Notes under the pieces: model-generated | The model's input: only the letters and a program-made list of their open reading frames with translations | The model's database searches: none | Told to the model about the DNA's origin: nothing | DNA from: Prorocentrum cordatum | Lineage: Eukaryota; Sar; Dinophyceae; Prorocentrales; Prorocentraceae | DNA: 64,000 bases | Reading direction: 5' to 3' | NCBI GenBank assembly: GCA_963575745.1 | Contig: CAUYUJ010019346.1 | Span: forward strand, 35,001 to 99,000 | Shown: positions 22,101 through 63,605 of the stretch, piece after piece | Position numbering within the stretch: position 1 is the first letter of the stretch | How the letters are laid out: every line of letters starts with the position of its first letter | Made by a program: the position numbers and the translations under genes

Positions 22101-25100
22101 GGCTGAGGCTAATGCAGGCCACTGCGACTGTCATCGCGAATGCGACTACGACTGCGAGAACAGCAGAACTCTACAACTGGATTCTCATCTGAATCTTAAG
22201 GGGGATGCTTCCAGCTATGCTCCTACACATCGCTGTTAGGTTGCTTTGCCGGGATAATTCTCAGAAGGCCGCCCTCCCCTTTTTTCTTGCCAGCCAAGAA
22301 CTTGCAACGATCAAGTTATGTCTTTGGGGGGTCCGGCAAAGGAGGTCCAAAGGGGGGGGGCTAAGCCCCCCCCTTGGGAAAGAGAGAGGGGGGGGGAGAT
22401 TCCAGAGCACCGCAGGCCAGGGCCCCTCTGACAAAAAGGAGGGGTGGGAGAGGGCTTCCGGCAGGGGAAGTCCCGAGGGGGAGGGGTAGCTAAACCCTTA
22501 GCTAAGCCACCCCCCCTGCTTTGGAAAGGGGGGGGGGTGCTTCTGGAGCGCGAAGGGGGGGGGGGAGGGGGGGGGGGGGCTTCCGAAGGACGGGGAAAAA
22601 GGAGGGGGGTCTGGCAAGGGAGGTCCAAGGAGGGGGGGTAGCTAACGGGGCACCCCCCCCCTTTTGGACTGGTGGAGGCTGTCGGACTCCTCCTTCGCCC
22701 CGCTTTAGTGTTCCTTTCTGTCTAATGCGAGGTTGTGGTTGTTCTCCTTGAGGGCGTTGATCAGGAGGAAAAGAAACACACAGCCACAATCAATCGTCGA
22801 CTCCCCAGGAAAATATGGGAAAATATGGGCAGCGGGTGGGAAGACAAACACTTTGAAAATATGGAAAAATATTGGGAATCTTGTTACTTGTGTGTATTTA
22901 TTTAATCGCTTCGCTCATTCCGCCGGCCCTGGAGCGCTATTTGGGGCCTCTTGGGGCCGTCTTGGGGGCTTCTTGGGGGCTTCTTGGGAGCGTCTTGGGG
23001 CTCCTTGGCGGCGTATTGGGCTCCCCTGGGGCCTCTTGGGGGGCTCTTGGGGGCTCCTTGGGGCGGGAGGGGGGGTAGTCGTTGGCAGCCCCCCCCTCGG
23101 AGGCCACGATCCTCGAGAGGGGTGGCGAAAAATAGCCTCCCCCCTGGGGATCGCCCGGGGATCAGCGGGGGATCGGCCGGGGTACTTTTCGTCCGGGGCC
23201 CCCCAGGGGCCGCCCCGCGCGCGCGAACTAGAAATATTGTTAAGTAGTTACCGGAGATCTCAGCACGCCTCTGGCCCGTTGGGCCGGCGAATTTGTGTGT
23301 TGCAGGGCCCCTTTAATTGAGCATTGCTCCGACATTGGCCCTCGCTGGTCTCCCCGGCCTTGGTCTGCCTTCTTGGAACCTGCGTGAGGTTCCTTTGGGT
23401 GCGTTTTTTCTTTGTGGGACGTCTGCCTCGTCGTGTGCAGCACCAACCTCGTTGTATGCGTCTTTCCGTGCGAGCTGATGCCCTTGTGGATGATGTGGAG
23501 CTTGTTGAGTTTCCCCTCTAGTGTGACCAGGTATGCCTCCACTTCTGTGTGTTGTGCCTTGGTATACTCGTAGTGGGCATCCATGGTCTGCTTGTTTCGG
23601 TCGATCTCTCTGGCCTGTTGGGGAAATGGCATTTTGTTGATGATCGTCGCCTTGATGAAGGCGATCCGTGTGTTTGTGTCTGTTGTAGGTAGGCCAGCGG
23701 CGCTTGCCTTCATGATCGCACTCTTATTTGAGTTTTGGATCATTGGGTGGTGATTCCTAGTCGTGCCTAATGGTAGCGTAGACCTTGCGCATGGGCATGG
23801 CGTTGATGATGATTTTCAGGTGGTCGTTGTAGTTCTTTTTGGAGTCCCTCTGCTTCTTCTTGGCTGTGGTGTCATCCTCTTACGTGGGTTCGTGTTTGCC
23901 CTTGCCCTTCTTCTCCTTGATCTTGTCCTTCTGCGGCTGGTTGGTGTCCTCGATATGGTCGTCGCACGGTTTGGGGAAGCTACCCTTGCCCTTGCCGTCG
24001 GTGCCCTTGATGCTTTTGCTGCTGCCACTGTTTCAGTAGGTGTCGGGCTGCTTGGCTGCCCATTGTGCGGCTCATTCCTCTTGCCTCCACCGTTCGAGGC
24101 CAGCGCCGATCGCGGGTTCAGCTGGGCGCGTTGGTGTTCCCTTGCTTGGTGTGCGGCTCGAGGTTGGTCTCCATGGCGGTGATGTACTCGATGGCGTGCT
24201 CGCGGTTGATCCCCGTGATGCTGCGATTGAGAGTTTGGTGTGGATGTCGCAGTGGTTGTTGCGCACAGCAAAGTGCTTGAAGTGTATTTCCGGATTCGTG
24301 AAGCCGTGGTAGAATGTGGGCATCACCACGTTGCCGCCGAAGTCGCATGTGCCAGGCGGGGCAGCGTGATCTGGATGTCGATGTTGGCGTGGCCCCGAGC
24401 AGGGGACGGGAACAGCAGTGCTTGTTGTGGATGTTACGGTGAAAATCAAGGCCTGATGGGCCTGTGAAGGTCGCGTTGGCCGCCGCGCGGTTCTGAGATC
24501 CCGGGAGAGAGACAGCGCCAAGTCGTTGCTGCCCGCGGCCACCCGCCTCTGCTACGACCAGGTACGTGCTGCCTTATCGAGCAAGCGTTTCTCACCGCTC
24601 CAGAAGATTTGCATCAAAGCCTTGTAGTGCGATGCCGTGTGGGCGAAGGAGGTTGCAGTTAAGCGTGGGTATCAGTTTGAGGATGTCACTTGCAGCCTAT
24701 GCGAAGACGGCCAGGACTCACTGGAGCATCGGCTGTATTTCTGTTCGGCTTGCTCTCTGGAGCGCAAGGAAGTTCTCGAGCGTCTAAGGATAAACGGCCC
24801 GACGTGTCCACGGTGGTTTTCCAGGGGCCAGAGACCAAACTATGATTTCTGAGGGGTTTGTTCGGGCACCCAGGAGATGTATGTCCTCGTCCTTCGAACG
24901 CTGGTGTTTTTTTTGTGGAATGGCCAGGGAGAGACAATCAGGGCCCCATTGGGTTGGGGGTCCAGTTTGATTTGTTCTTCGATTGATGTTGTTATAAGCC
25001 TGTGGTTCCCGTGCTGCCCAGGGGAGGTTGGGGGTTCGTTGTTCTTCCTCCACGCGGACCTTCCGCAATTCATTACCACAAGTGCACAAGTGCACAGTTG

Positions 25101-31100: not shown

Positions 31101-34100
31101 GGCGGGGCCCTGGGGCGAATTGAATCGGGAGCCTCCTGTCTAGGGTTTTTGGGCGGGGCGTGTGTTTTACCCGTCGTTCTCGGCGCGCGTTTGTTCTTCG
31201 CCGTGACCCCGCCTGGGTTTTGGGAGGTCGCGGGCCCGTTTTGGCCCTTCCACTCTCCGCCCTTCGTCGCCCCCCCTCCCGCCGCTGACGCTGCCCGCTC
31301 CGCTCATGGCCAGTATCCAGATTCAGGGCAAGGTATTTGGCAAGGAATCTTCAATCACGCCACCTTCACAGATCAGGGCCATCCTTCCTCTACCATCGGT
31401 CTTGCAAGTTCGCGACTGTCTCCTCGCGGCCGCCCTCGCACCTATGATTGACAGGGCTTGCCCCCCACCGTGCGGGCACGTTCGTGGGAGCCCAACGCCC
31501 GCGCCCGCGAGGCAAGTAACCTTGGCGTTGGCCAGGGCGGCCGCGGCCAGGAGCACCCCACGCAAACGACCCCTCGTCACTGTTGCAGCAGAGGGAGGAT
31601 CCTCTGTTGCAGCAGTGACGAGGGTGGCCGCCGCGTGGGTGGCTCAAACCTCCCCCCGCCTGTGGACCCTTCCCGACCCCGCAGTCCCTCCCTGGGAGCC
31701 CTACGACCACCTCGGCGGGCGATGGCCTCCCCGGTGGGACTGGGGGTCGGGGCGGTGGGAGGGCCTCCTCCTCCTCCTCCTCCTCCTCCTCCTCCTCCTC
31801 CTCCTCCTCCTCCTCCTCCTCGTACCCTTCCTCCTCCTCCTCCTCCTCCTCCTCCTCCTCCTCCTCCTCCTCCTCGTACCCTCCTCCTCTCCTCCTCCTC
31901 CTCCTCCTCCTTCCTCCCTCCTCCTCCTCCTCCTCCTCCTCCTCCTCCTCCTCCTCGGGTCCCCAGGGCGGGGGAGAGGAGGCCCCTCGGCCCCCCCCCC
32001 CCCGGGCGAGTGTGGCCTCACCGGCCACCGCACGCCACCGTCAGGGTGGCCCGGCCGCGCGTCCGCGGCGCCATTGCCACAGGCGCCAGGGCCACGCTGC
32101 CCTCCTCATCTCCACCCCCTGAGGTTTATGAGATCAGATGCCGTCCTCCTCCTCCTCCCCCTCCTCCTCGTCCTCCTCCCCCTCCTCCTCCTCCTCCTCC
32201 TCCTCCTCCTCCTCCTGCTCCTCCTCCTCCTGCTCCTCCTCTTCGATCCCCCCTCCCCAGGCGCTGGGGGACCTAGCTACCCCGCCCCTGGTGGGGCCTG
32301 ACGGTCCGCTTCTTACTTACCACATGCAGACAAAGTTTGATCGCCCCCTTCCAAGGTGCAAAAAGCCCCTGGGCGGGGGGAGGGCAGCTCCCGAACGGAT
32401 CGAGCGCCACCAAGTACGAGCTACAAGGAGGAGGAGGCGGAGGAAAAGGAGAAGGAGGAGGAGGAACGTGCGCAGGTGGGAGGAGGAGGAGGAATTTGGG
32501 CAGGTGGGAGGAGCAGGAGGAGGAGGAGGAGGAGGAGGAGGAGGAGGAGGAGGAGGAGGAGGAGGGAGGAGGGAGGAGGGAGGAGGGAGGAGGGAGGAGA
32601 AGGAGAAGGATTCTAGACGCTTCGCGTATCCCCACCAGCCCGTCCAGAAACGGCGCCCAGGCGAGTATAGGGTCGTCCTGAGGGGCTTTTCGGCGTCTTG
32701 GGTGCCTCGGGGGGGCCTCTGTGGGCCGTTCGGGATCCTGTTTGGGGCCTCCTGGGGGCCTCTTGGGGCCTCTTGGGGCCATCTTGGGGCCTTTGGGGGC
32801 CTCCTGGGCGCTTCTTGGGGCCATCTTTGCCCCCTCAGGAGGCCAAAATGGGGCCACAATCTCAGTAGAATCAATGATTTTGGCTTCCTCGCCGAGGCCG
32901 TTTTGGACGCTCTGACCGCTCCCCGCCCCTCCTGTCCAGGTCAGTGGGGAGGGGGTAGGGGGAGGGGTAAACCCTTCCCCGAAGGGGAAGAGGGAGGGGT
33001 GGAAGAGGAAACGCCCTAAACCACCGACGCCCAGAGGGCTGGTGGGAATCCGTTGTTATAGCTTGCTTCTCAGTGTAGCAAGTATTTTCGCGGCGCCGAG
33101 CGCACTGTATGCTCGGCACGCCATGTGCTCAAGCTACGCTGGGCGCGCGAGAGTTTGTTGCTGCGTTTATGACCGTACCTGACGCAAATCCGTCGACAAA
33201 ATAGTTCGAAGGAGAGTCGAACAACAAATCTCCATGAACGTCAATTTTCGGAGGTCCACGTGGATGTCTTGAATCTGCGCTGGGTCCCCCTGGCGGTGCC
33301 TCCAGCGCCGCCACTGGCGCGCTGCGCGCGAGGGGGTCCAGCGACGATCCAAGAAGTCTGCGCGGACCGCAGAAAGCTTATGCGTATGCCGTGTTGTCCT
33401 TCCTCTGGAGAGGAGCCCCACGAGTGCGGCCCCCTCCCCAGGGCGCCGTGAAGTGGCTGAGGCGGATGCGGTCCGAGGGCGTCGAGCCGAACGGGACTTC
33501 TGACGCGCCGCCTGTCTCTCCTCTTGCCCCCCACGTTTGCCAACCCGCTCGATGACTACCGGGAAGCTGGACACGACACGAGGCGGCCAGCCTTGGGCCA
33601 GAGTCGGATGCGCAGGTGGCCGCACGTCCTGCCAGCGCCCGGGCTCTTGCCTGGCCAGGGTCTCCGCCCGTCTGCATGTGTGTCCAGCTCGTGGCTCCCA
33701 CGTGATCCGCGCGTGAAGCCAGCCGAGTTTCACGCGTCCTGCAAGAGTGACCGCGAAAGGATGCCGTCCAGGAGAGGTGATCCCACGTTGCTTCTGGCAG
33801 TGGCGATCCCGTCGAAGGTGCCTGCGGCGAGTCACCGTCGCCCCCCGCCTCTCTGGCACAGCCGATCGTTGGGCCGATGCTTGGCCATCTTGGTGCAGGG
33901 CACGAGCTCTCTTGGTTTGTCTGTGGCTTGGGTGGCGGCGGGTTGGGCCAGAGATTCGGGCCCATCCAGCCACCGTGCTGGAGCTGCGGGTGCGATGCGC
34001 CGTGGGAGCACGGGAGTACGGCAGCGTCTTGGGACGGGGGCCTCAAAGGGAGAGTCCATTTGGGAGGCTATTTGGCACCTGTGGCCTCCTGACTTCAATC

Positions 34101-39149: not shown

Positions 39150-39600
39150 CCAGTATCCGCGCCCGCCCCCGCTGTCTACGGCGTTGGCTCTTCCTCTCCT
39201 GCCCGCCCCCCCCCGTCCACCTCCCTCTCCGCGCGGAGCGCCAAAAGCTTCTGTCTACGGCGTTGGCTCTTCCTCTCCTGCACCCCCCCGTCCACCTCCC
39301 TCTCCGCGCGGAGCGCCAAAACCTTCTGTCTACGGCGTTGGCTCTTCCTCTCCTGCACCCCCTCCCCGTCCACCTCCCTCTCCGCGCGGAGCGCCAAAAG
39401 CTTCTGTCTACGGCGTTGGCTCTTCCTCTCCTGCACCCCCCCGTCCACCTCCCTCTCCGCGCGGAGCGCCAAAACCTTCTGTCTACGGCGTTGGCTCTTC
39501 CTCTCCTGCACCCCCTCCCCGTCCACCTCCCTCTCCGCGCGGAGCGCCAAAAGCTTCTGTCTACGGCGTTGGCTCTTCCTCTCTGCACCCCCCCCCCGGT
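39150..39600. repeat. 75/78-nt alternating tandem repeat
   Basis: Unit: CCGTCCACCTCCCTCTCCGC, GCGGAGCGCCAAAAGCTTCT, GTCTACGGCGTTGGCTCTTC. Starts at 39215, 39290, 39368, 39443, 39521: alternating 75 and 78 nt, i.e. a 153-nt dimer also marked by AAGCTT/AACCTT. Both lengths are multiples of three, so a Pro/Ser/Arg-rich frame stays open over the array. Confidence 0.93.
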
Positions 39601-39732
39601 CCCCCTCCCGCTCCACCCTTCCTCTGCACAGGAGGGGCGCCCGAGGCGCCCGCGAGAGGGCCCGCAAGAGGCCCCGGGGGCCCCCCCCCCGGAGGCTCCG
39701 CCGGGCGATGGGGGTCCTGCGCCCCTCTCGGG

Positions 39733-39885
39733 AGGGAAAGAATCACACAGACACAACTTAATCGTCGATTCCTCAGAAAATATGGGGAAATCTGGGAAAT
39801 ATGGGGGGGAAGACGAAGACCCCCAAAATATGGGAAACTATGGGGGAATAGTTTTACTTGTGTGTATTTCTTTGTGTGTCCTTGG
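39733..39885. mobile_element. Inverted-repeat element, family E
   Basis: AATCACACAGACACAACTTA ATCGTCGATTCCTCAG, AATATGGGGAAATCTGGGAA ATATGGGGGGGAAGACGAAGAC, AAAATATGGGAAACTATGGG, TTACTTGTGTGTATTTC. Closest to the 22735 copy. Confidence 0.82.
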
Positions 39886-40531: not shown

Positions 40532-43500
40532 ATGCTGCCCGCCGCGCCCGCCGCGCGCCGCGCGGCGGCGCCGGCAGCGCCCCCGCGCCGCGGCGCGGGC
40601 GGCCCGCCGCGCCCGCCGCCGTGCGCGGCGCCCGCGCGCAGCGGGGGCGGGCCGTGGCGGAGCGCCGCGGCGGGCCGCCTCGGCGCCGCGGGCGGGCCCG
40701 GCGGCCGCCGACGGCCGCAGGGGGCCCCGGCGCGCAGGGCGGCCGCGGGCGGGGCCGCGGGCGGGGCCGCGGGCGGCGCCGAGCCCGAGAGGCGGGCCGC
40801 GCTGGCGGCGGCGGCCGCCGCCGCCGCCGCGGCCGTCGCCGCGGACAGCGGCCTGCGTGCGGGGGGGCGCTACGCGCCAAGCGGGCCGGTGGTGTGGCCG
40901 CCGAGGCTGTCCAAGGAGACGCTGCGCGAGGAGCTCCGAGGAGGCAAAAGGTGTCGTTGCTGCCACCCGTGCCTCGTTCTCGCCCTCCTCGGGCCTCAGG
41001 GGAGGCTCTCTCCTCGCCACGGCCGGGCTCGCCTCGAGATTTTATGGTCGGAGCGCGCCCCAGGAGTGGTCCGCGGAGGAGCAGCGGCATCGATGCCCCT
41101 TCGTTCCCCCAGGAGCTGGTCCCGGGGGCCATCTGGGGTCTGGAGCAGGTGTCGAAGAACAAAAGCATCATCAATAGAATCTTTTGGCGCTGCGCGCGGA
41201 TTTCTTGGATCTGCGCTGGACCCCCCTCCCTGGCATGCCGAGCGCGTCAGGGGCGGCGCCGGAGGCGCTGCCGGGGGGACCCAGCGCGGATCCAAGAAAT
41301 CCACGCGTAGCGCCAACCAATTAATGTTTATGGCGTTTTTCTTCTTCTTCTAAGGTGATCGCGTTCTTCACGGTCTCCGCCAACGTCCGCATGACGGTGG
41401 TGCGCTTGCGCGACGGGGGCCTCTGGGTCTTCAGGAGGGGAAAACACACACAGACGCAGACACAGTTCAGCGTCGACCCCCAGGAGAATGCAGGATGATA
41501 TGGGAAGCGGGGCGAAAGACGAAAACCCAGAACATATTTTGAAAGCATGAGGAGTCCTGGGATTCGTATCTATTTCGTGCGGGCCCCTTAAGGTCTGCTC
41601 GCCTGTCTCGCCCACGGGCCAGTGCCTGCGGCTGCTCCGTGAGCTGGGGCGCGTGGCACACCTCGTGGCGCCGGGGACGGCGCTGGAGCACAAGGCCTCC
41701 CCTGCGGACTCCTCGGAGGGGCAAATGTTTCACCACCACTACCAGATGTAGGACGGGGGAGAAGGGAGGATGAGGATGTCCTCCTCCTCCCTTTCCTCCT
41801 CCTCCTCCTCCTCCTCCTCCTCCTCCTCCTCCTCCTCCTCCTCTCTCCTACCTGTGGTAGTGGTGGGCTGAAGTCGGGCACGTCCCTCTACAGGAGGAAT
41901 ATTCAGAAATAGTCCAGAAATAGTCTGGAGACGATGTTTCGACTACGTTTGAACTATTCTGGGGGTATTGTTTGGCTATGTTCTACTGTTCCTCCAAAAT
42001 CTGCCCTGCAGGAGGACATGCCCGACCTAACGCAAGGCCTCCTTGGCGGACTTCTCGCGCGAGTTCCCGGAGGCCACGGTCTGGGTCTCGCCCGGCCAGG
42101 GCGCCAGCCCGCTCGACCCGCCGCTGGGCCGCGTGGACGGCGTGCTCGGCCAGGGGAGCGAGCCTCCCTGGAAGTCAGAGATCGACTACAGGTTGGCGAC
42201 CACAAAAAGGGTGTGGCTACGACTACAAAAAGGGTGTGATTACGACAGGTTCTGGTTACGAACGCAAAAAGGGTGTGGTTACGACCACAAAAAGGGTGTG
42301 GTTACGACCACAAAAAGGGTGTGGTTACGACCACAAAAAGGGTGTGGTTACGACCACAAAAAGGGTGTGGTTACGACAGGTTCTGGTTACGAACACAAAA
42401 CGGGTGTGGTTACGACCACAAAAAGGGTGTGGTTACGACCACAAAAAGGGTGTGGTTACGACAGGTTCTGGTTACGAGCACAAAGAGGGTGTGGTTACGA
42501 CCACAAAAGGGTGTGGTTACGACCACAAAAAAAGGTGTGGTTACGACAGGTTCTGGTTACGACCACAAAGAGGGTGTGGTTACGACCACAAAAAGGTTGG
42601 CGACCACAGAAAGGGTGTGGTTACGACAGGTTCTGGTCGTGTCGACCAGCGGCGACTCCGCCGCCAGCGTTCAACGTTGAACGCCGCCAGCGACTCGGAA
42701 TTGGTCGATGGTGACCGATCTGACGTTGCGGAAGCGGCCGATCGTTCAAGATTGAACGAGCCCCCAGGTGTCAGGAACCACCGCCAGGGTCAGCAAGGCA
42801 CGAACCTACCGCCGGTGGGGTTGTGCGATCTGACTCGCCTTCGGGGGGCCCAAAGCGGTGTGGTTACCACACCGCGTGGTGAGCCAGTGGGGATTCGGGG
42901 TCACCGCTCGGCTTGCACGGTTCCCCTGGGGCCGTAGGCGACCCGAGGAGAAGGAGGAGGATGAGGAGGAGGAGGAGGAGGAGGAGGTGGAGGACGGGGA
43001 GGGGGAGGAGGAGGAAGGAGGAGGAGGAAGAGTTGGGAGGAGGGGAAGAGGGGAGGAGGAGGGAGGAGAGGAGAGGAGGAGGAGGATGGAGGAGGGAGAG
43101 GGAGGAGGGAGGAGGGAGGAGGGAGGAGGAGGAGAGGAGGGAGGAGGGGGGAGGGAGGGAGGGGAGGAGGAGGAGGAGGAGGAGGAGGAGGAGGAGGAGG
43201 AGGAGAAGTAGGAGGAGGAGGAGGAGAAGGAGGAGGAGGAGGAGGAGGAGGAGGAGCAGGAGGCGGTGGACGGGTCGCCTAAGCCCTTCGGAGAAACCCT
43301 CCAGCGCGGCTCGGGTCGTTCTCACGACTGGGGCCCCCGGGGTCTCGAAGCCGTGTTTCGACGGACCGCGCGGTGAAGTCGTTGGGGATTCCGAGGTCAC
43401 CACGCGGTCTGTCACCACGCGGTTCTGGGACCTTCCAGTTGGGGCGTGGGGGGGAGCACCACGTTGTCTTCGTCGGACCTCGGAGCTCGGTCGGGAAGCT

Positions 43501-44043
43501 TGTCGAGGCCCTCGCCCGCCCCCCAGGGTGCGGGTTGCAGACCGCACCCTTTGCACACCACATCTTTCGGAGTCGCCGAACAGGGTTTTCTACGTGGCGC
43601 CTCCGGAGACGGCCGGGACCTACGCGGAGACGGCCTTCTTCCACGCCCAGAGCAGGACACTGCTTCTCACGGACGCCGTGCTGAGTGTCCCTATCAGCCC
43701 GCCTGACGTCCTCTCGTCCTACGGATTCGAGGGGGAGCCCAGCGGATTGACCCCAGAGCAGTGGTACTACAAGTTCATCGCCTTCAATTTTCTGGCGATG
43801 CGCGGCTCGGACGAGGCGGACTTCAGGGCCCTCAGCAGGCCCAAGGGCATCGTCAGCCCTATCCTGCGGTTCACGCTCTACCCAGTCTGCCAGCGACAGG
43901 CAGCGGCATGGGTCGAGGACGTGGCCCGCTGGCCGTTCGAGCGCGCGGTGGCTGCCCACCTGCGGTCCCCGTTCGAGCTGGCGCCGGCGGACTTCCTGCG
44001 GGCGTTCGGGTTCCTCTTCGGCCGGGAGATCTGGGCCTCTTAG
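40532..44043 (+). CDS. DUF4336 family protein, probable thylakoid presequence; six exons, 407 residues
   Basis: Exons: 40532-40930, 41113-41148, 41355-41426, 41593-41694, 42037-42191, 43584-44043 (stop TAG). All joins are in phase. Order of recognisable family segments: PRLSKETLRE | ELVPGAIWGLEQ | VRMTVVRLRDGGLW | SPVSPTGQCLRLLRELG, VAPGTALEHKA | DFSREFPEATVWVSPGQ, PPWKSEIDY | VFYVAPPETAGTYAETAFFH, RTLLLTDAVL, then a C-terminal WPFERAVAAHLRSPFELAPA DFLRAF segment. DUF4336 proteins of plants, algae and bacteria have a metallo-beta-lactamase-like fold and no assigned reaction. The first 133 residues are Ala/Arg/Gly/Pro-rich; ERRAALAAAAAAAAAAVAAD is a twin-arginine plus hydrophobic core plus AxA pattern, so import into the thylakoid lumen is likely. 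The start ATG is a choice: the frame is open further upstream. Donors are GA, GT, GT, GC, GT. Exon identity is strong; the first donor and the start are the weakest points. Confidence 0.85.
40931..41112 (+). mobile_element. DUF4336 intron 1 made of a family D element
   Basis: Sequence from GGTGTCGTTGCTGCCACCCG through GGGCCTCAGGGGAGGCTC, CGGGCTCGCCTCGAGATTTT and CCAGGAGTGGTC aligns along its length with elements at 47965-48125 and 49180-49350. Exon edge CGAGGAGCTC and acceptor edge CCAGGAGCTG share AGGAGCT, so the exact cut is ambiguous within the repeat; a GA donor gives the family-like LREELVPG join. Confidence 0.78.
41149..41354 (+). mobile_element. DUF4336 intron 2 carrying a family A inverted repeat
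   Basis: GT-AG intron. 41184-41316: TTGGCGCTGCGCGCGGATTT CTTGGATCTGCGCTGGACCCCCC faces GGGGGGACCCAGCGCGGATC CAAGAAATCCACGCGTAGCGCCAA. Edges GAGCAG|GTG and TCTAAG|GTG repeat AGGTG. Confidence 0.88.
41427..41592 (+). mobile_element. DUF4336 intron 3 made of a family E element
   Basis: GT-AG intron. GGAAAACACACACAGACGCA, CAGCGTCGACCCCCAGGAGA, GATGATATGGGAAGCGGGGC, GAAAGACGAAAACCCAGAAC and TTCGTATCTATTTCGTG follow the order of the copies at 22735 and 39733. Exon edges both read GTCT (TGG|GTCTTC and AAG|GTCTGC). Confidence 0.82.
41695..42036 (+). mobile_element. DUF4336 intron 4: CTC tract plus family F inverted repeat, flanked by a 25-nt direct repeat
   Basis: GC-AG intron. 41781-41842 is a CTC microsatellite. 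41873-42028 starts GTCGGGCACGTCCCTCTACA GGAGGAA and ends TTCCTCC...CAGGAGGACATGCCCGACC (inverted). CAAGGCCTCCCCTGCGGACT CCTCG at the donor and CAAGGCCTCCTTGGCGGACT TCTCG at the acceptor match at 22 of 25 positions by eye. 55845-55890 carries another right end of the same element. Confidence 0.85.
42192..43583 (+). repeat. DUF4336 intron 5: 23-nt minisatellite, GGA microsatellite and element fragments
   Basis: GT-AG intron. 42195-42640 holds about 18 copies of a unit with GTTACGACCACAAAAAGGGT, punctuated by GTTACGACAGGTTCTGGTTA. 42640-42760 has GTTCAACGTTGAAC and GCCGATCGTTCAAGATTGAA, similar to 34965-35050. 42950-43262 is GGA repeat. 43310-43440 matches 13945-14080. Open frames through the minisatellite are artefacts. 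Confidence 0.88.
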
Positions 44044-44262
44044 ATGGGTCGGAGTAGATGGGGTCGGAGGATCGCGCCGCATCGCCGATGCATCGCTGCT
44101 GCGGCTCGATGTGGAGCCCGATTTGTTTCACGTCGATGGCGCCGATGCATCGCCCACGTCGACGATGCATCGACGATGCCGCCAATGCATCGCCGATGCA
44201 TCGGCGATGTATCGGCGATGCGGCGCGATCCTCCGACCCCATGTACTCCAACCCCATCTGGG
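44044..44262. mobile_element. Inverted-repeat element, family C, abutting the DUF4336 stop
   Basis: GGTCGGAGTAGATGGGGTCG GAGGATCGCGCCGC begins directly after the TAG; the inverse GCGGCGCGATCCTCCGACCC CATGTACTCCAACCCCATC ends at 44262. GCCGATGCATCG repeats lie between. Confidence 0.85.
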
Positions 44263-44289
44263 AGGCCTCTAGGAGAGCAGATGACAAAA

Positions 44290-44430
44290 AACGCATCAAT
44301 ACCGCTGCCCTCGCCCCGTTCTCGCTTCTGTTGGGCCACTTGGGGGAGCCTCGCCGCCACCGCTGGATTCGCCTCCAGGTTCTGCGCAGAACGCATCGTA
44401 GGAGAGGTCCTGGGAGTAGTGTCGGCATCA
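44290..44430. mobile_element. Inverted-repeat element, family D (diverged)
   Basis: ATCAATACCGCTGCCCTCGC, GAGCCTCGCCGCCACCGCTG, GATTCGCCTCCAGGTTCTGC, GAGAGGTCCTGGGAGTAGTG. 44440-44990 to the right contains the 44610-44790 element and no gene. Confidence 0.75.
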
Positions 44431-44989
44431 CCCACACATACTCATACCATATGTGCATCGCCCCCCCATAGTCGACGCTCGCGCTCAGAAATTTAGTAAG
44501 TTACATGCTCAGTGGCGGGCGCTTCCTGGCCATACTATAAGATGCTTATCATACATGTTCGCCTCGGGCGTGCGCCTGGTACCTGTATGTCTTTCTGTGT
44601 CCCATGGCTGGGGGGGGCGACCACCAATCGCCCACTGATCGCCGACAAGGGGCTTGACGACCAGCCCCGCCCCAGGAAGCGTGGCCTCGCTCTCGGGGGC
44701 TGGTCGCCGATCTGTCGGCGATGCATCGCCGATTCCAGCTCGATGTTTCCCAGCCTGAGCCAGTCCCCCCCTAACGCTGCCCCTCAGTAGCAGTGTCGAT
44801 GCCTTCGGGCGACGCGCGCGCTCAGAACGCTCATAGTACGCACGTGTAACGATGCACAATCGAGTTGCCTGCGGCAAGTTGCGCCCACGTACCAGCCCGG
44901 CATTGTGGGTGGCGACTGTTCGAGGGGGTACGGGGTTGGCCGTCATGTTTGACACCTCGCGTCTCTGGGCCTGAGGGAGCCATGATGAG

Positions 44990-45738
44990 GATGATGAGGG
45001 TTATGACGATGTTGGGGGTGATGATGATCAGGAGGGGGAGACGGAGCAGGATGAGGATGAGGAAGAGGGTGAGGATGAGGGGGAGGATGAGGATGAGGGT
45101 GAAGATGAGGGTCATGATGAGTATGAGGAGGATAATGATGATGGTGATGTTGAGATGATGATATGATGAGATGATGATGGGATGATGATGAGTATAAAGG
45201 GGGATGATGATGGTGGTGATGATGCTGATGGTGATGCTGATGATGATAAGGTTGATGCTGATGCTGGTGATGATGGTGTGGAGGAGGATGACGTCCACGA
45301 CGACGACGTCGATGATGATGCTGATGCTGATGGTGATGGTGATGATGATGAAAATGATGAACATGGTGGTGATGGTAACGATGATGGTGGTGATGATGGT
45401 GATGATTCTGATCATGCTTATTCTAACCATGGTGATGCTTGTGATGGTGATGATGGTGATGACGACAGTGATGATGGTGATGATGACGACGATGATGACG
45501 ACTATGGTGGTGATGATGATGATGATGTTGCCGATGATGCTGATGATGATGACGCCGTCGACGACGACGATGATGATGATGATGCTGGCGATGATGCTGC
45601 CGGTGATGATGATGATGCTGATCATGATGATGATACTGATGGTGGTGGTGATGATTGTGATGGCGATGATTATGGTGATGGCGATGAAGATTGATGATGA
45701 TGGCGACCATAATGACGATGATAATGATGATGATGACA

Positions 45739-45795
<57 letters not shown>

Positions 45796-46036
45796 GTGCT
45801 GATGATGCTGATGGTGATGCTGATGCTGATGCTGATGATGATGATGCTTATGATGATGATGGTGACGATGGTGAAGGCGACGGCGACGACGACGACGACG
45901 ATGACGGTGACGTTGATTACGATGTTGATGCTGATGCTGATGTTGATGTTGCTGTTGCTGCTGGTGGTGATGATGATGATGCTGATACTGATGGTGATGC
46001 TGATGATGATGCTGATGCTGATGCTGATGCTGCTGC

Positions 46037-46132
<96 letters not shown>

Positions 46133-46133
46133 G
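44990..46133. repeat. GAT/ATG trinucleotide microsatellite (about 1.1 kb)
   Basis: Impure GAT repeat, becoming purer toward 46020-46130, with GCTGAT and GACGAC variants. Gives poly-Asp, poly-Met and poly-Ile/His frames up to 400 codons that are not genes. Confidence 0.95.
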
Positions 46134-46134
46134 A

Positions 46135-46660
46135 CTCGTTTGGGCCGTCTTGGGGCTATCTTAGTCTCCTGTTTGGGGCCCTCTTACGCCGGCTTTGGGC
46201 TCTTGGGCCGTCTAAGGGCCCTCGTGGCCGTATGGTGGGTGTTTGGGGGCCGTCGTGGGGCCGTTTTGGCGCCGTCGTGGGCATTCGATGGGCTGATGGG
46301 CTTTCTAAGGCCGTCTTGTGTCCCACGGGAGGCCCTCTTGGGCCGTCTTGGGGCCGTCTTAGATGCCTCTTGGGCAATCATGGAGTCCTCTTGGGACGCC
46401 TTGAGCTGACGGCAGCCTGCAAGGGTGAGAATGCGAAAATCATTCAAAAACCGAAGACAACTATGATTATGGCTTCTTCGGACTCTGCGGGAGGTCCTCT
46501 TATAGCCCTTTTGGGCCCTTTGGTATGCATCTTGGGCAGCCTTGAATCCATATTCAGCCGCCATGGGGTCATCTTGGGCCGTCTTCGAGGCGTCTTGGGC
46601 CATCTTGGTGTCCTTGGTTGCCTGCACGGGCCGTCTTGGAAGCTCGGGACGCATATCCAT
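46135..46660. repeat. GGCCGTCTTGG short-unit tract
   Basis: Same family as 6180-9084 with one box near 46420-46495 (GAAAATCATTCAAAAACCGA). Confidence 0.87.
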
Positions 46661-46699
46661 CGTTTTTAAACAAGGGATCGTAGCTTGGGAGGTCGTGTA

Positions 46700-46945
46700 G
46701 CGATTGGGAGAAGCGCCTGGAAGTGCGGTAAGTGCACCATCCTCGAGCGGGTGCGCGTGGGATGAGAGGTGAAGGATTTAGCGGCCATCTGGGAAGTGTA
46801 CAATCCTCGAGCGGGCGCGCATGGAATGATGGTTCAGGCATTGGCCGTCATGCGGGAAGTGCATCATCCTCGAGCGGGCACGCGTGAATTAGGGTTTAAG
46901 CGTTACCTGCCATTCTGGAGTTGCACCATCCTTGAGCGGGCACGA
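46700..46945. repeat. Minisatellite, about 65-nt unit, four copies
   Basis: Unit: GGAAGTGCACCATCCTCGAG, CGGGC(A/G)CGCGTG, then a variable 25 nt. Starts near 46715, 46790, 46855, 46920. Confidence 0.88.
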
Positions 46946-47214
46946 GGGAAGTGGCCTCGGAAAGGAGGGGTGGAGCATGCAGCAGTCTGCGAGTAGGGAG
47001 GGGGAGGAACCCTCCTCAGGTTTCAAAAAACCCTACAAGACAGTCCTCTGCATTCTCCCACGCCTCAACATGCCAAGGGACACGCTGGCGGATAAGATGG
47101 TTGTACTATATGTTCGGCTGCGTTCGGTTTGCGCGTACGCTTCCAAGGGGGCGCGTAGTACTAGTATGTCCATCTGCGTCCCATAGCGGTGTCGATGCTT
47201 CCTGGCTTCCCCAG

Positions 47215-47340
47215 GAGAGCTCCTGGGAGCCGGAGCCCGCACAGCTCGCGCAGCTGCTGTCCGCGGCCCGGCAGCTGGATGGGCCAGAGGCCTTAAGCAG
47301 CAGCATCTGGGCGCGGTTCGTAGCGGACGCGCCCTCGGGG
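47215..47340 (+). CDS. Exon-like segment, unidentified
   Basis: Follows a pyrimidine stretch and CTTCCCCAG acceptor. Encodes ESSWEPEPAQLAQLLSAARQ, LDGPEALSSSIWARFVADAP then S-G, with GC-rich third positions like the DUF4336 exons. It ends at TAA (47341) or at a GT donor in GGG|GTAAAA. The next 47351-47560 looks like an inverted-repeat element (CCCAGACCCCCTCGCGTCG / CGCGACGTCGGGGGTCTGGG). Which gene it belongs to is unknown. Confidence 0.45.
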
Positions 47341-47635
47341 TAAAAAAGATCTGGGAGGACCCAGACCCCCTCGCGTCGTGCAACAAAAACAAGTCGGACG
47401 ATTTTTGTTTGCTTTGCAATGTTCGGCCTCTGGGGGCCTGGGACCGACAACAGGTAACTCAGGAGGAACAGCGGGTCCTTGGGAATTGGTCGAGACGTCT
47501 GGGGGTCCGCGTTGTGAAAAAACGCGACGTCGGGGGTCTGGGAAGCGTTTGGGGGGCCCGCCCGGACAGCTGAAGCGGATGTCTCGGCACGTCGCAGGTG
47601 GGAGGAGGAGCACATGTGATGGGCCGATGTTCTCC

Positions 47636-47728
47636 TCCTCCTCCTCCACCTCATCCTCCTCGTCCTCGTCCTCGTCCTCCTTCTCCTCCTCCTCCTCCTC
47701 CTCCTCCTCCTCCTCCTCCTCCTCCTCC
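47636..47728. repeat. CTC microsatellite within an element end
   Basis: CTC repeat followed by CTACCTGTGGCAGTGGTG; the same order (CTC repeat, CTACCTGTGGTAGTGGTG) is seen at 41781-41862 in DUF4336 intron 4. Confidence 0.85.
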
Positions 47729-47964
47729 TACCTGTGGCAGTGGTGATGGAAAATCGGCCCATCAAGATGGAGGAGGAGGGGGGGGGAAGGGCAGGAGGAG
47801 GAGGGGGAGGCTTCTGGGCAGCAGCGGGGAGGCGACCGATAGCTCTGTGTTGGGCGACGTTCTGCCAAGACGCCGCCTGCCTCGCAAGCAGATGACCCGC
47901 CGCTCGACGTCAGATTACCCGCCAGATCTGATGGGAGCAGGCGGAGGGGGGAGGGAGGTCAGAG

Positions 47965-49165: not shown

Positions 49166-49179
49166 GGGCCCTCCTCTCA

Positions 49180-55700: not shown

Positions 55701-55924
55701 CTTGTCCAGGTCCAGAGGAGGGGGTAGGGGACCCTTCCCCGAGGGGGAAGAAGGAAGGGTGGAAGAGGAAACTGCTTAAACCACCGACGCCCCGAGAGCT
55801 GGTGGGATTGCTAGAACAAGTGTCCCCCGACTATGTTCGCACTATTCTTGGATGTTCCTCCTGCAGAGGGACACGCCCGACCTGACGGTAAGATGTTTGT
55901 AATCTCTGTCCTGCCGGGAGATCA

Positions 55925-59335: not shown

Positions 59336-59382
59336 TCCCTCGGGCGATCTATAAGGCAGACTTGGGAGAGCTGCTCGACTTG

Positions 59383-60540
59383 ATGGCGGCCAACCGCTCC
59401 AGCGCAGGGTTGCCGCCGCAGGCGGTAGCGCCCGCTAGCCACTCCAAGGACGTGTACGGGAAGCACCGAAAGCTGCTGAGGTCGCTGTACCACAGTAAAT
59501 TCCCGCCGATGCGCTTCCAAGTGCACGCCGACACGCCCAAGGGGCAGGCTCGGGCGTGCTCCCTGGCGGCCTCGCACGGGCGCTGCGTCGTCGTCACCGG
59601 AGAGCCTATGCACTGCGTCTTCGAGGTCAGGAGGCTCGTCCCAGCGAGCGCCAACGACACCGAGGTGTTCCTGGCGGACTACAAGGACGCCATCACCCGG
59701 TTGTCGGCGGCGAGTCCCCCACCGAAGGGCGACGGCGCGGGCCAGCCTGAGGACCTCGAGCACGAGGCGGAGGCCCTGCTCGAGAGGTCCGTGAGCCAAC
59801 TCCCCCCGACGCTCCAGCGGGAGGCGGCGCTCGACCCTGACAACATAGAGCGCGTGCGGACTTTCCGGGCCCAGCCGCGCTGCGCCAGGGCAGGCACCTG
59901 GAAACGCGTCTTCGGTTCTCAGCCGCCCAGGGGCGCGCTGGCCCGGATCGCCCGCCTCTGCGGTGCCCAGCTGGACAGCTCCGCCTCGTATTGCAACTAC
60001 CGCGCCGACAAGGCGTTCAGGGCCGAGCTGCGGCGCGTGCAGCACTGGTACCGACCGGGGCGCCGACAGCGACGGTGGCGCACCGGCATCGTGCGGGACC
60101 GGCGGCAGGCCGCCCACGTCAAGGGCGTGCGCAGCGTCATCACGCGGAAGGTGCGCGACCACTTCCGCAGGATGCGCCGCCGCGTCAAGGTGGAGGGCCT
60201 GATGAACTGGCGGGATGTCGCGCTCGCCACGCGGCAGGCGGGCATCCCCGTCCAGTCTGGCACGGTCCCAGTGGAGCGGTTGTGGTCCTGCTTGGAGGAC
60301 ATGATGCCTGCAGCCGCGCGGGGCGCATCGCTCCGGTGGTTCAGGGTCCTTAGCATGGTTATGTTCTTGCGCTACAACTACATGCACTTCAACAAGGACA
60401 ACCTGCCGACGATGGCAGAGCGGGACCCCCTGCTCGGCCAGCGTCTGGCGACGATCGCCATGCTGGCTCGGGCCGTGAACGAATCCGATCAGGGCTTGTC
60501 GCACCTGGCGCCTCTTTTTGACCCGTTCGGCTCGTGCTGA
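59383..60540 (+). CDS. Intact intronless ORF, 385 residues, transposase-like C-terminus
   Basis: Start at the first ATG (59383); the frame is open back to 59296, so the N-terminus may be longer or lost into the repeat. Features: basic region HVKGVRSVITRKVRDHFRRM RRRVKVEGLMNW near residues 250-280, then IPVQSGTVPVERLWSCLEDM MPAAARGASLRWFRVLSMVM FLRYNYMHFN. The ER-x-W-S segment followed by a hydrophobic helix resembles the C-terminal dimerisation block (ERLFS type) of hAT-like transposases; no DDE residues can be assigned. Third positions are strongly GC-biased as in genuine genes here. No flanking inverted repeats were found. Stop TGA 60538-60540. It could instead be an uncharacterised cellular protein. 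Confidence 0.65.
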   Translation: MAANRSSAGLPPQAVAPASHSKDVYGKHRKLLRSLYHSKFPPMRFQVHADTPKGQARACSLAASHGRCVVVTGEPMHCVFEVRRLVPASANDTEVFLADYKDAITRLSAASPPPKGDGAGQPEDLEHEAEALLERSVSQLPPTLQREAALDPDNIERVRTFRAQPRCARAGTWKRVFGSQPPRGALARIARLCGAQLDSSASYCNYRADKAFRAELRRVQHWYRPGRRQRRWRTGIVRDRRQAAHVKGVRSVITRKVRDHFRRMRRRVKVEGLMNWRDVALATRQAGIPVQSGTVPVERLWSCLEDMMPAAARGASLRWFRVLSMVMFLRYNYMHFNKDNLPTMAERDPLLGQRLATIAMLARAVNESDQGLSHLAPLFDPFGSC

Positions 60541-63245: not shown

Positions 63246-63350
63246 CCAGCGATGGCGACAGCACCGTGGTGCTTTGTTCCTGGCCCGAGGGGGTCTGCGC
63301 TCCCCCTCCCCGCCGCCGCCCCGCGGCAGGACCCCCCCTCGCGCGGGGAG

Positions 63351-63440
63351 GCCGCCGGGGCCTTCCGGCAGATGCTCGCGGCCGGCGTGCGGCCGGACGG
63401 GCCCGCGCTCCGGGCGCTCAGCCGCGCGGTCCTGCGGGGA
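63351..63440 (+). CDS. PPR exon
   Basis: After GCGCGGGGAG, encodes AAGAFRQMLAAGVRPDGPAL then RALSRAVLRG. Ala at 17, Met at 24, Gly at 28, Pro at 31 fit the PPR register used for the main gene. Could be a later exon of that gene (26 kb on, beyond DUF4336) or a second PPR gene. Donor not fixed. Confidence 0.6.
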
Positions 63441-63489
63441 GGGCCGGGGGCAGCGCCGAGTCGCGGGTGTCCTCAACTCAGATTAGGAA

Positions 63490-63605
63490 GAAGGGGTCCC
63501 ATACCGCTGCTCCCTTCCCCATTTTCCGAAGTCTTTGGGGCCTCTCGGGAGGCCCTCGTCGCCACCGCTTCCCGGGACTAGCGGTATTGGTACCTGTCGG
63601 GTTTC
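63490..63605. mobile_element. Inverted-repeat element, family D (short copy)
   Basis: GGGGTCCCATACCGCTGCTC CCTTCCCC, GGGGCCTCTCGGGAGGCCCT CGTCGCCACCGCTTCCCGGG, ACTAGCGGTATTGGTACCTG. Confidence 0.8.

Follow-up and report, generated by a model that had tools for sequence, protein, structure and literature searches.

Successive introns of a DUF4336 gene in Prorocentrum cordatum very probably arose from insertions of unrelated short transposon families

Four successive introns of a gene of Prorocentrum cordatum were described, in a sequence-only reading, as each containing a different dispersed inverted-repeat element, which raises the question of whether such elements gave rise to the introns or settled in introns that were already present. 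The gene is located at 40790-47343 (+) of the window, i.e. the 64,000 nucleotides of DNA analysed here, which is carried by contig C18497 of the 4.13-Gb genome and has a G+C content of 61%, compared to the 59.7% published for the P. cordatum genome (PMC10666404). Its product is a DUF4336 protein (domain match, E-value 9.5e-33). Based on tblastn of the annotated protein P0001 (“unnamed protein product, partial [Prorocentrum cordatum]”) and a check of the spliced coding sequence, the gene comprises seven exons and six introns, all on the + strand: exon 1 (40790-40930, its 5′ limit being the reach of the annotated partial protein), exons 2 to 6 (41113-41148, 41355-41426, 41593-41694, 42037-42191 and 43584-44025) and exon 7 including the stop codon (47215-47343). 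Exons 2 to 6 were placed by the identity of the spliced sequence with P0001, and exons 1 and 7 by this identity together with tblastn. The joined exons reproduce 358 of the 358 residues of P0001, and the interval singled out in the sequence-only reading (40931-42036) covers introns 1 to 4 exactly, from the first base of intron 1 to the last of intron 4. The exon joins are also gap-free in an alignment of the protein with eight relatives. The RNA is presumably spliced at the predicted borders of introns 1 to 4, and the annotated protein agrees with this. From intron 1 to intron 6 the donors are GA, GT, GT, GC, GT and GA, while every acceptor is AG followed by G; this set of donors fits the mix published for the species (GT 24.7%, GC 51.4% and GA 23.8%; PMC10666404).

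All six introns have direct repeats of 5-10 nt at their borders. Among the 720 possible donor-acceptor pairings, the observed total of border repeats was reached by the true pairing only, and a repeat of at least 5 nt was found in one of 30 mixed donor-acceptor pairs. In introns 1 to 3 no exact border repeat longer than 5-7 nt was found. Two further candidate signals were set aside. An AAAA run is located 6-18 nt past the duplication in five of the six introns (background 2.5%), but it was not relied on because the motif and two of the start points had been picked after inspection. A terminal motif common to the families, TCAGAGGAGGAAAAG, gave 11 matches where 2.9 were expected, yet four of these were D itself and the remaining ones included matches in GA-rich repeats, so that the cross-family motif was dropped.

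The presence of an element is not proof by itself, since random segments often have relatives too: when 223 segments of 182 bp were drawn at random from elsewhere than the gene, 79 had a dispersed relative in the window, and four of four segments would have one in roughly 2% of draws if these were independent. The geometry at the intron borders, in contrast to the presence of relatives, is not due to chance. With low-complexity sequence filtered out, introns 1 to 4 showed no similarity to one another, and the families (D, A, E and F, respectively) are therefore unrelated by sequence; copies of all four are dispersed in the genome. In each of the genome searches described below scoring was confined to the 40 best candidates; the copy counts, which refer to the 39 other copies, therefore concern those that most resemble the introns and favour full-length elements.

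Intron 1 (40931-41112, GA-AG) is essentially one D element (approximately 40936-41111). The string AGGAGCT is shared by 40929-40935 and 41111-41117, the duplication being GGAGCT. A D profile built without intron 1 still found this intron (E-value 3e-27 for a target of less than 1 kb), with an alignment (40926-41113) that ends at most 5 nt from the intron borders. D relatives were found by BLAST at 47955, 49176 and 55918 in the window, to which the profile added intron 6, 36375 and 63476. Genome-wide, the whole of intron 1 (query positions 1-5 to 181-182) was matched by seven of the 39 other D copies (best 40 of 917 candidates). Duplications of at least 5 nt were present in 7 of 29 D copies compared to 78 of 812 mixed pairs, a signal that is weak in bulk; the strict count was one of eight compared to two of 56 mixed pairs, with an end pattern that is poorly anchored and misplaced even the ends of intron 1. 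The D duplication is probably about 6 bp long, as judged from few copies. One D copy, L099 (C17927:155687-155839), is located inside a 197-nt GA-AG intron of a protein kinase gene, of which the exons joined across the intron give a Pkinase match (E-value 4.5e-36), and a clean GGAGCT is common to intron 1 and L099. Family D is present as introns in two different genes, those for the DUF4336 protein and the protein kinase. Elsewhere in the window, a coding-like stretch (63297-63458), which may resemble a PPR repeat, is followed at once by the D copy at 63476 (region 63297-63569), possibly another D intron.

Intron 2 (41149-41354, GT-AG) is essentially one A element (41152-41352), with AGGTG at both borders. 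The A profile built without intron 2 (E-value 3e-44, target of less than 1 kb) aligned at 41159-41363, reaching 9 nt into exon 3, and relatives are present in the window at 33226, 38908 and 62769. In a whole-interval genome search (best 40 of 14522 candidates) 26 of the 39 other A copies begin at positions corresponding to 41151-41156, the element start being 41152. With looser ends, duplications were found in 4 of 21 A copies (intron 2 included) compared to 29 of 420 mixed pairs. Both ends were recognised in 8 of 20 copies, two of which have an exact 5-bp duplication, compared to none of 56 mixed pairs; one of these two (L019) is located in GAA-rich sequence. A duplication of 5 bp, which fits intron 2, is weakly indicated by these few copies. 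On the minus strand, five near-identical 25-nt copies of the A end (39228-39558, at 39252, 39327, 39405, 39480 and 39558) are spaced 75-78 bp apart, as if a minisatellite had grown out of an A terminus.

Intron 3 (41427-41592, GT-AG) is essentially one E element (41431-41591), flanked by the duplication GGTCT (41426-41430 and 41592-41596). The statement of the sequence-only reading that the elements fill most of introns 1 to 3 was borne out for all three. The E profile built without intron 3 gave an E-value of 2e-18 (target of less than 1 kb) and an alignment (41428-41578) that stops 14 nt short of the intron end. BLAST of intron 3 identified one relative in the window, at 22761. A second one proposed earlier, at 39733, was not among these hits and was found only by a profile that included it; it shares its ends with E copies genome-wide. 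The other relatives that had been listed, in families D (47955 and 49176), A (the three named above) and F (55822-55881), were all recovered. Among the 39 other E copies (best 40 of 2129 candidates), 28 begin at positions corresponding to 41430-41432, where the element start is 41431, and E copies elsewhere have the same ends and their own 5-bp duplications. Both ends were recognised in 15 of the 29 copies examined; the duplication is an exact 5 bp in six of these 15 (none of 210 mixed pairs) and matches at four or more of the five positions in ten (two of 210 mixed pairs). E copies on C13805 and C1118 share their ends and flanks, and the DUF4336 paralogues on C13891 and C20859 cannot be told apart in their alignments; such pairs (L067/L070 and L032/L033) represent recent duplications or haplotypes and are therefore not independent counts.

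Intron 4 (41695-42036, GC-AG) is different in that it is composite, so that the expectation of a dispersed element in each of the four introns held as to families D, A, E and F but not as to a single element here. The intron contains, in order, a copy of the start of exon 5, a hairpin unit (G) and a full-length F element. The copy (41691-41715) and the exon-5 start (42033-42057) form a 25-nt direct repeat with 21 of 25 positions identical (84%), a level equalled by 33 of 200000 random pairs. Hairpin unit G (41733-41866) has a (TCC)n core and a relative near 47705-47763, and was found by a profile built without intron 4 with an E-value of 5e-7, partly due to low complexity. The F element (41869-42030) occupies the 3′ half of the intron and was likewise found by a profile built without intron 4 (E-value 3e-10, target of less than 1 kb); the window contains one relative (55822-55881). 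All 39 other F copies (best 40 of 6282 candidates) start at positions corresponding to 41867-41874 and end at 42026-42036. Directly after F, CGCAAGGC (42031-42038) is identical at 7 of 8 positions to CACAAGGC at the end of exon 4 (41689-41696).

In 19 of the 22 F copies examined both ends were recognised, and an exact 8-bp duplication was present in six of these 19, compared to none of 342 mixed pairs; 13 of the 19 match at seven or eight of the eight positions, a looser count that stands without a control. The duplication tends towards the form nnnTAGnn. Of the 16 F duplications matching at six or more of eight positions, 6 have TA at positions 4-5 of the 5′ copy and 10 have it there in the 3′ copy (background 2.0%); for AG at positions 5-6 the corresponding numbers are 9 and 10 (background 6.6%). 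Family F agrees with the 8-bp nnnTAnnn form of the hAT Buster group, as a preference and not as an invariant. The F ends lack the initial CAG of the hAT Buster example (PMC3517528). The motif CGCAAG recurs directly past the 3′ end of F in the unrelated copies L110, L113 and L127 and at 42031 in the window, representing either a target preference or a subfamily end.

The end of F coincides with a splice border of intron 4 at its 3′ end only, and the extra duplicated bases and unit G require another event beyond a simple F insertion. For this intron alone, repair of a staggered break or a tandem exon duplication, with the elements captured or added later, is an unlikely but not negligible origin. 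The 25-nt copy of the exon-5 start, with its 84% identity, exceeds the 8-bp duplication of F, and unit G sits between this copy and F, as such an origin would have it; against it, the 3′ end by which F adjoins the second copy is the usual one for the family, and the expected 8-bp duplication is matched at seven of eight positions. In introns 1 to 3 the same process is opposed by the lack of exact repeats beyond 5-7 nt.

The description of the elements as inverted repeats holds for intron 2, a near-complete hairpin (z -13.4, 0 of 200 shuffles as good), and for intron 4 (z -4.0, 0 of 100 shuffles), where it stems from two hairpin units and not from one element, but not for intron 1 (z -0.99, 34 of 200 shuffles as good) or intron 3 (z -1.0, 29 of 200) taken alone. 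Inverted arms are present in the D copy at 49176 (z -3.7) and barely so in the E copy at 39727 (z -1.6). Flush inverted ends were found in intron 2 (0 of 200 shuffles as good) and intron 5 (3 of 200) and are absent in introns 1, 3, 4 and 6, and were therefore rejected as a trait of all introns.

The two remaining introns are longer. Intron 5 (42192-43583, GT-AG, 1392 nt) has ACAGG at both borders in addition to its inverted ends, and an inner minisatellite; it opens with this type of sequence (42192-42640), the unit of which includes the first bases of the intron itself. Intron 6 (44026-47214, GA-AG, 3189 nt) consists of an H element (approximately 44030-44271), D sequence from 44277/44278, long tandem repeats and a D-like 3′ end, which is weak when taken alone (E-value 0.17). 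GGAGA is present at the exon/H, H/D and D/exon borders (44025, 44272 and 47214), and GGAGAG flanks the D ends as read. This layout reads as an earlier insertion of D followed by one of H, which would have hit the left-hand copy of the D duplication. Downstream of the gene, at 59368-60477 (+), there are two long coding-like stretches with a codon use like that of the DUF4336 gene.

Genome-wide, the E and F duplications differ in length with strong support, and intron 3 and the F side of intron 4 carry the fitting lengths. Element ends, border repeat and splice border coincide in introns 1, 2 and 3. A target duplication that supplies splice sites is in this way reflected in the border repeats of all six introns, and its genome-wide signal is clear for E and F and weak for A and D. 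The search of the introns against the whole genome, as proposed in the sequence-only reading, did yield copies, but few of those screened clearly lie between exons. The joined flanks of 29 D, 20 A and 29 E copies, out of the 39 others scored for each of these families, were screened for coding sequence: one D copy was a clear case (L099), L101 was doubtful, and no second intron case was found in the A and E copies. Most screened copies therefore look like ordinary dispersed elements. The screen showed no sign of gene enrichment among the copies; it recovered intron 3 but missed intron 1 and is therefore insensitive to short exons.

Paralogues of the gene bear on the age of the introns. In the closest one, on C19310, the exon is continuous across the sites of introns 2, 3 and 6; its intron p4 is at the exact position of intron 4 (K117/A118, phase 0), p6 is 1 nt from intron 5, another intron is located 7 nt upstream of intron 3, and others are at new places. 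Near intron 1 this paralogue has an acceptor 6 nt downstream, for which a matching donor was not found. The distant paralogues read in one frame over the sites of introns 1 to 5 (C21049), introns 2 to 5 (C13891 and C20859) or introns 2 and 3 (C225). From these comparisons it follows that introns 2, 3 and 6 are not shared and that intron 1 is probably not shared. Intron 4, given its common position with p4, may be shared with the paralogue or parallel, and intron 5, given its 1-nt offset from p6, is doubtful; either may be older or a parallel gain. The paralogue introns p2 and p3 contain F and A copies that are not flush. For the permutation test of the paralogue introns (5 of 5040; p7, with 3 nt, kept and p1 left out), the borders had been placed at whichever GN-AG pair gave the longest repeat, a choice that biases the result. 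P0004 and P0005, ORF proteins that resemble the Symbiodinium orthologue, are unbroken across the sites of introns 1 to 4 and diverge at the site of intron 5; as these may be unspliced calls, their read-through is a hint only. P0006 from Symbiodinium microadriaticum has the DUF4336 domain, yet its database name is Mettl7b and it looks misnamed.

These comparisons also bear on the possibility that the introns are older and that common dispersed elements were inserted later and filled them, which we consider improbable. It is favoured by the density of elements (relatives of 79 of the 223 random segments), by the number of first-look candidates (917 for D, 2129 for E and 6282 for F), by the several inner elements of the longer introns of the gene and its paralogue, and by the position of intron 4, which is common to the paralogue. 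However, it gives no reason for element ends to adjoin the border repeat, for the repeats of introns 3 and 4 to have the lengths that E and F show elsewhere, or for the paralogue exon to continue unbroken where introns 2, 3 and 6 are located. The idea that the matches reflect low complexity or chance similarity, with a wrong exon model, can practically be dismissed, since despite the many trivial hits of the (TCC)n core of intron 4 the spliced model equals the annotated 358-residue protein, eight relatives are gap-free at the joins, and the element hits survive low-complexity filtering and leave-one-out profiles.

Insertions of four unrelated families of short DNA transposons very probably gave rise to introns 1 to 3 and, in intron 4, to the F portion or more. 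Introner-type gain, as the sequence-only reading had suggested, is supported by the border geometry, the E and F duplications, the second D intron and the uninterrupted sites in the paralogue. We infer that the direction of change was gain and not loss, and D, A, E and F are presumably non-autonomous transposons. In the proposed mechanism the four elements would have been inserted into the DUF4336 coding sequence, each duplicating a short target. The targets of A and F would have contained AG followed by G, while in those of D and E the first G would have completed the AG by using the terminal A of the element. The donor (GA, GT, GT and GC for introns 1 to 4) would then come from the first target copy and the acceptor, wholly or in part, from the second, so that splicing would restore the coding sequence.

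Introners have been described in other dinoflagellates. A survey reported between 1 and 43 introner families per genome, and an enrichment of introner copies in genes in 161 of 175 genomes (PMC9860276), and for Polarella glacialis 15 families, each comprising 100 or more introns, were reported (review PMC11453091, on Roy et al. 2023). The suggestion of a greater wealth of families than in a genome with a single introner was correct, but multi-family introner gain in dinoflagellates is already known (PMC9860276, PMC11453091, PMC7789003). As in the gene studied here, dinoflagellate introners are reported as transposable elements with duplications that recruit splice sites, some with inverted ends and with several families per genome (PMC9860276, PMC11453091). 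The duplications of 5, 8 and probably 6 bp in one P. cordatum gene differ from the 4 bp of the Symbiodinium microadriaticum example (Gozashti et al. 2022, PMC9860276). In P. cordatum itself, introns were reported to have an excess of inverted and direct repeats close to their ends; introners appear to have been called there by repeat pattern alone, with no description of families (PMC10666404). No family-level description of introners was found for this species among the papers listed by the literature searches. The introners of Amoebophrya likewise have inverted repeats and short direct repeats at their borders, and many non-canonical borders were described in its two strains, whereas the DUF4336 gene has GT, GC or GA with AG (PMC7789003).

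The DUF4336 gene offers a base-level view of unrelated elements becoming introns, in which the border repeats point to the responsible element. As a tentative proposal, which we regard as somewhat less than evenly probable, intron birth could be a property of the host and not of specialised introners: short transposons of several unrelated types, with duplications of 5, probably 6, and 8 bp, would turn into introns each time their duplication holds or completes an AG followed by G, since GT, GC and GA donors are all accepted by the spliceosome of dinoflagellates. For family F, it is conceivable, with the same reserve, that the nnnTAGnn preference places a ready acceptor at a fixed spot in many sites, as a target with TAG hands the insertion a splice acceptor for free. 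If intron birth is indeed such a host property, rates of intron gain would be predictable from the target preference of the transposons and the donor tolerance of the host.
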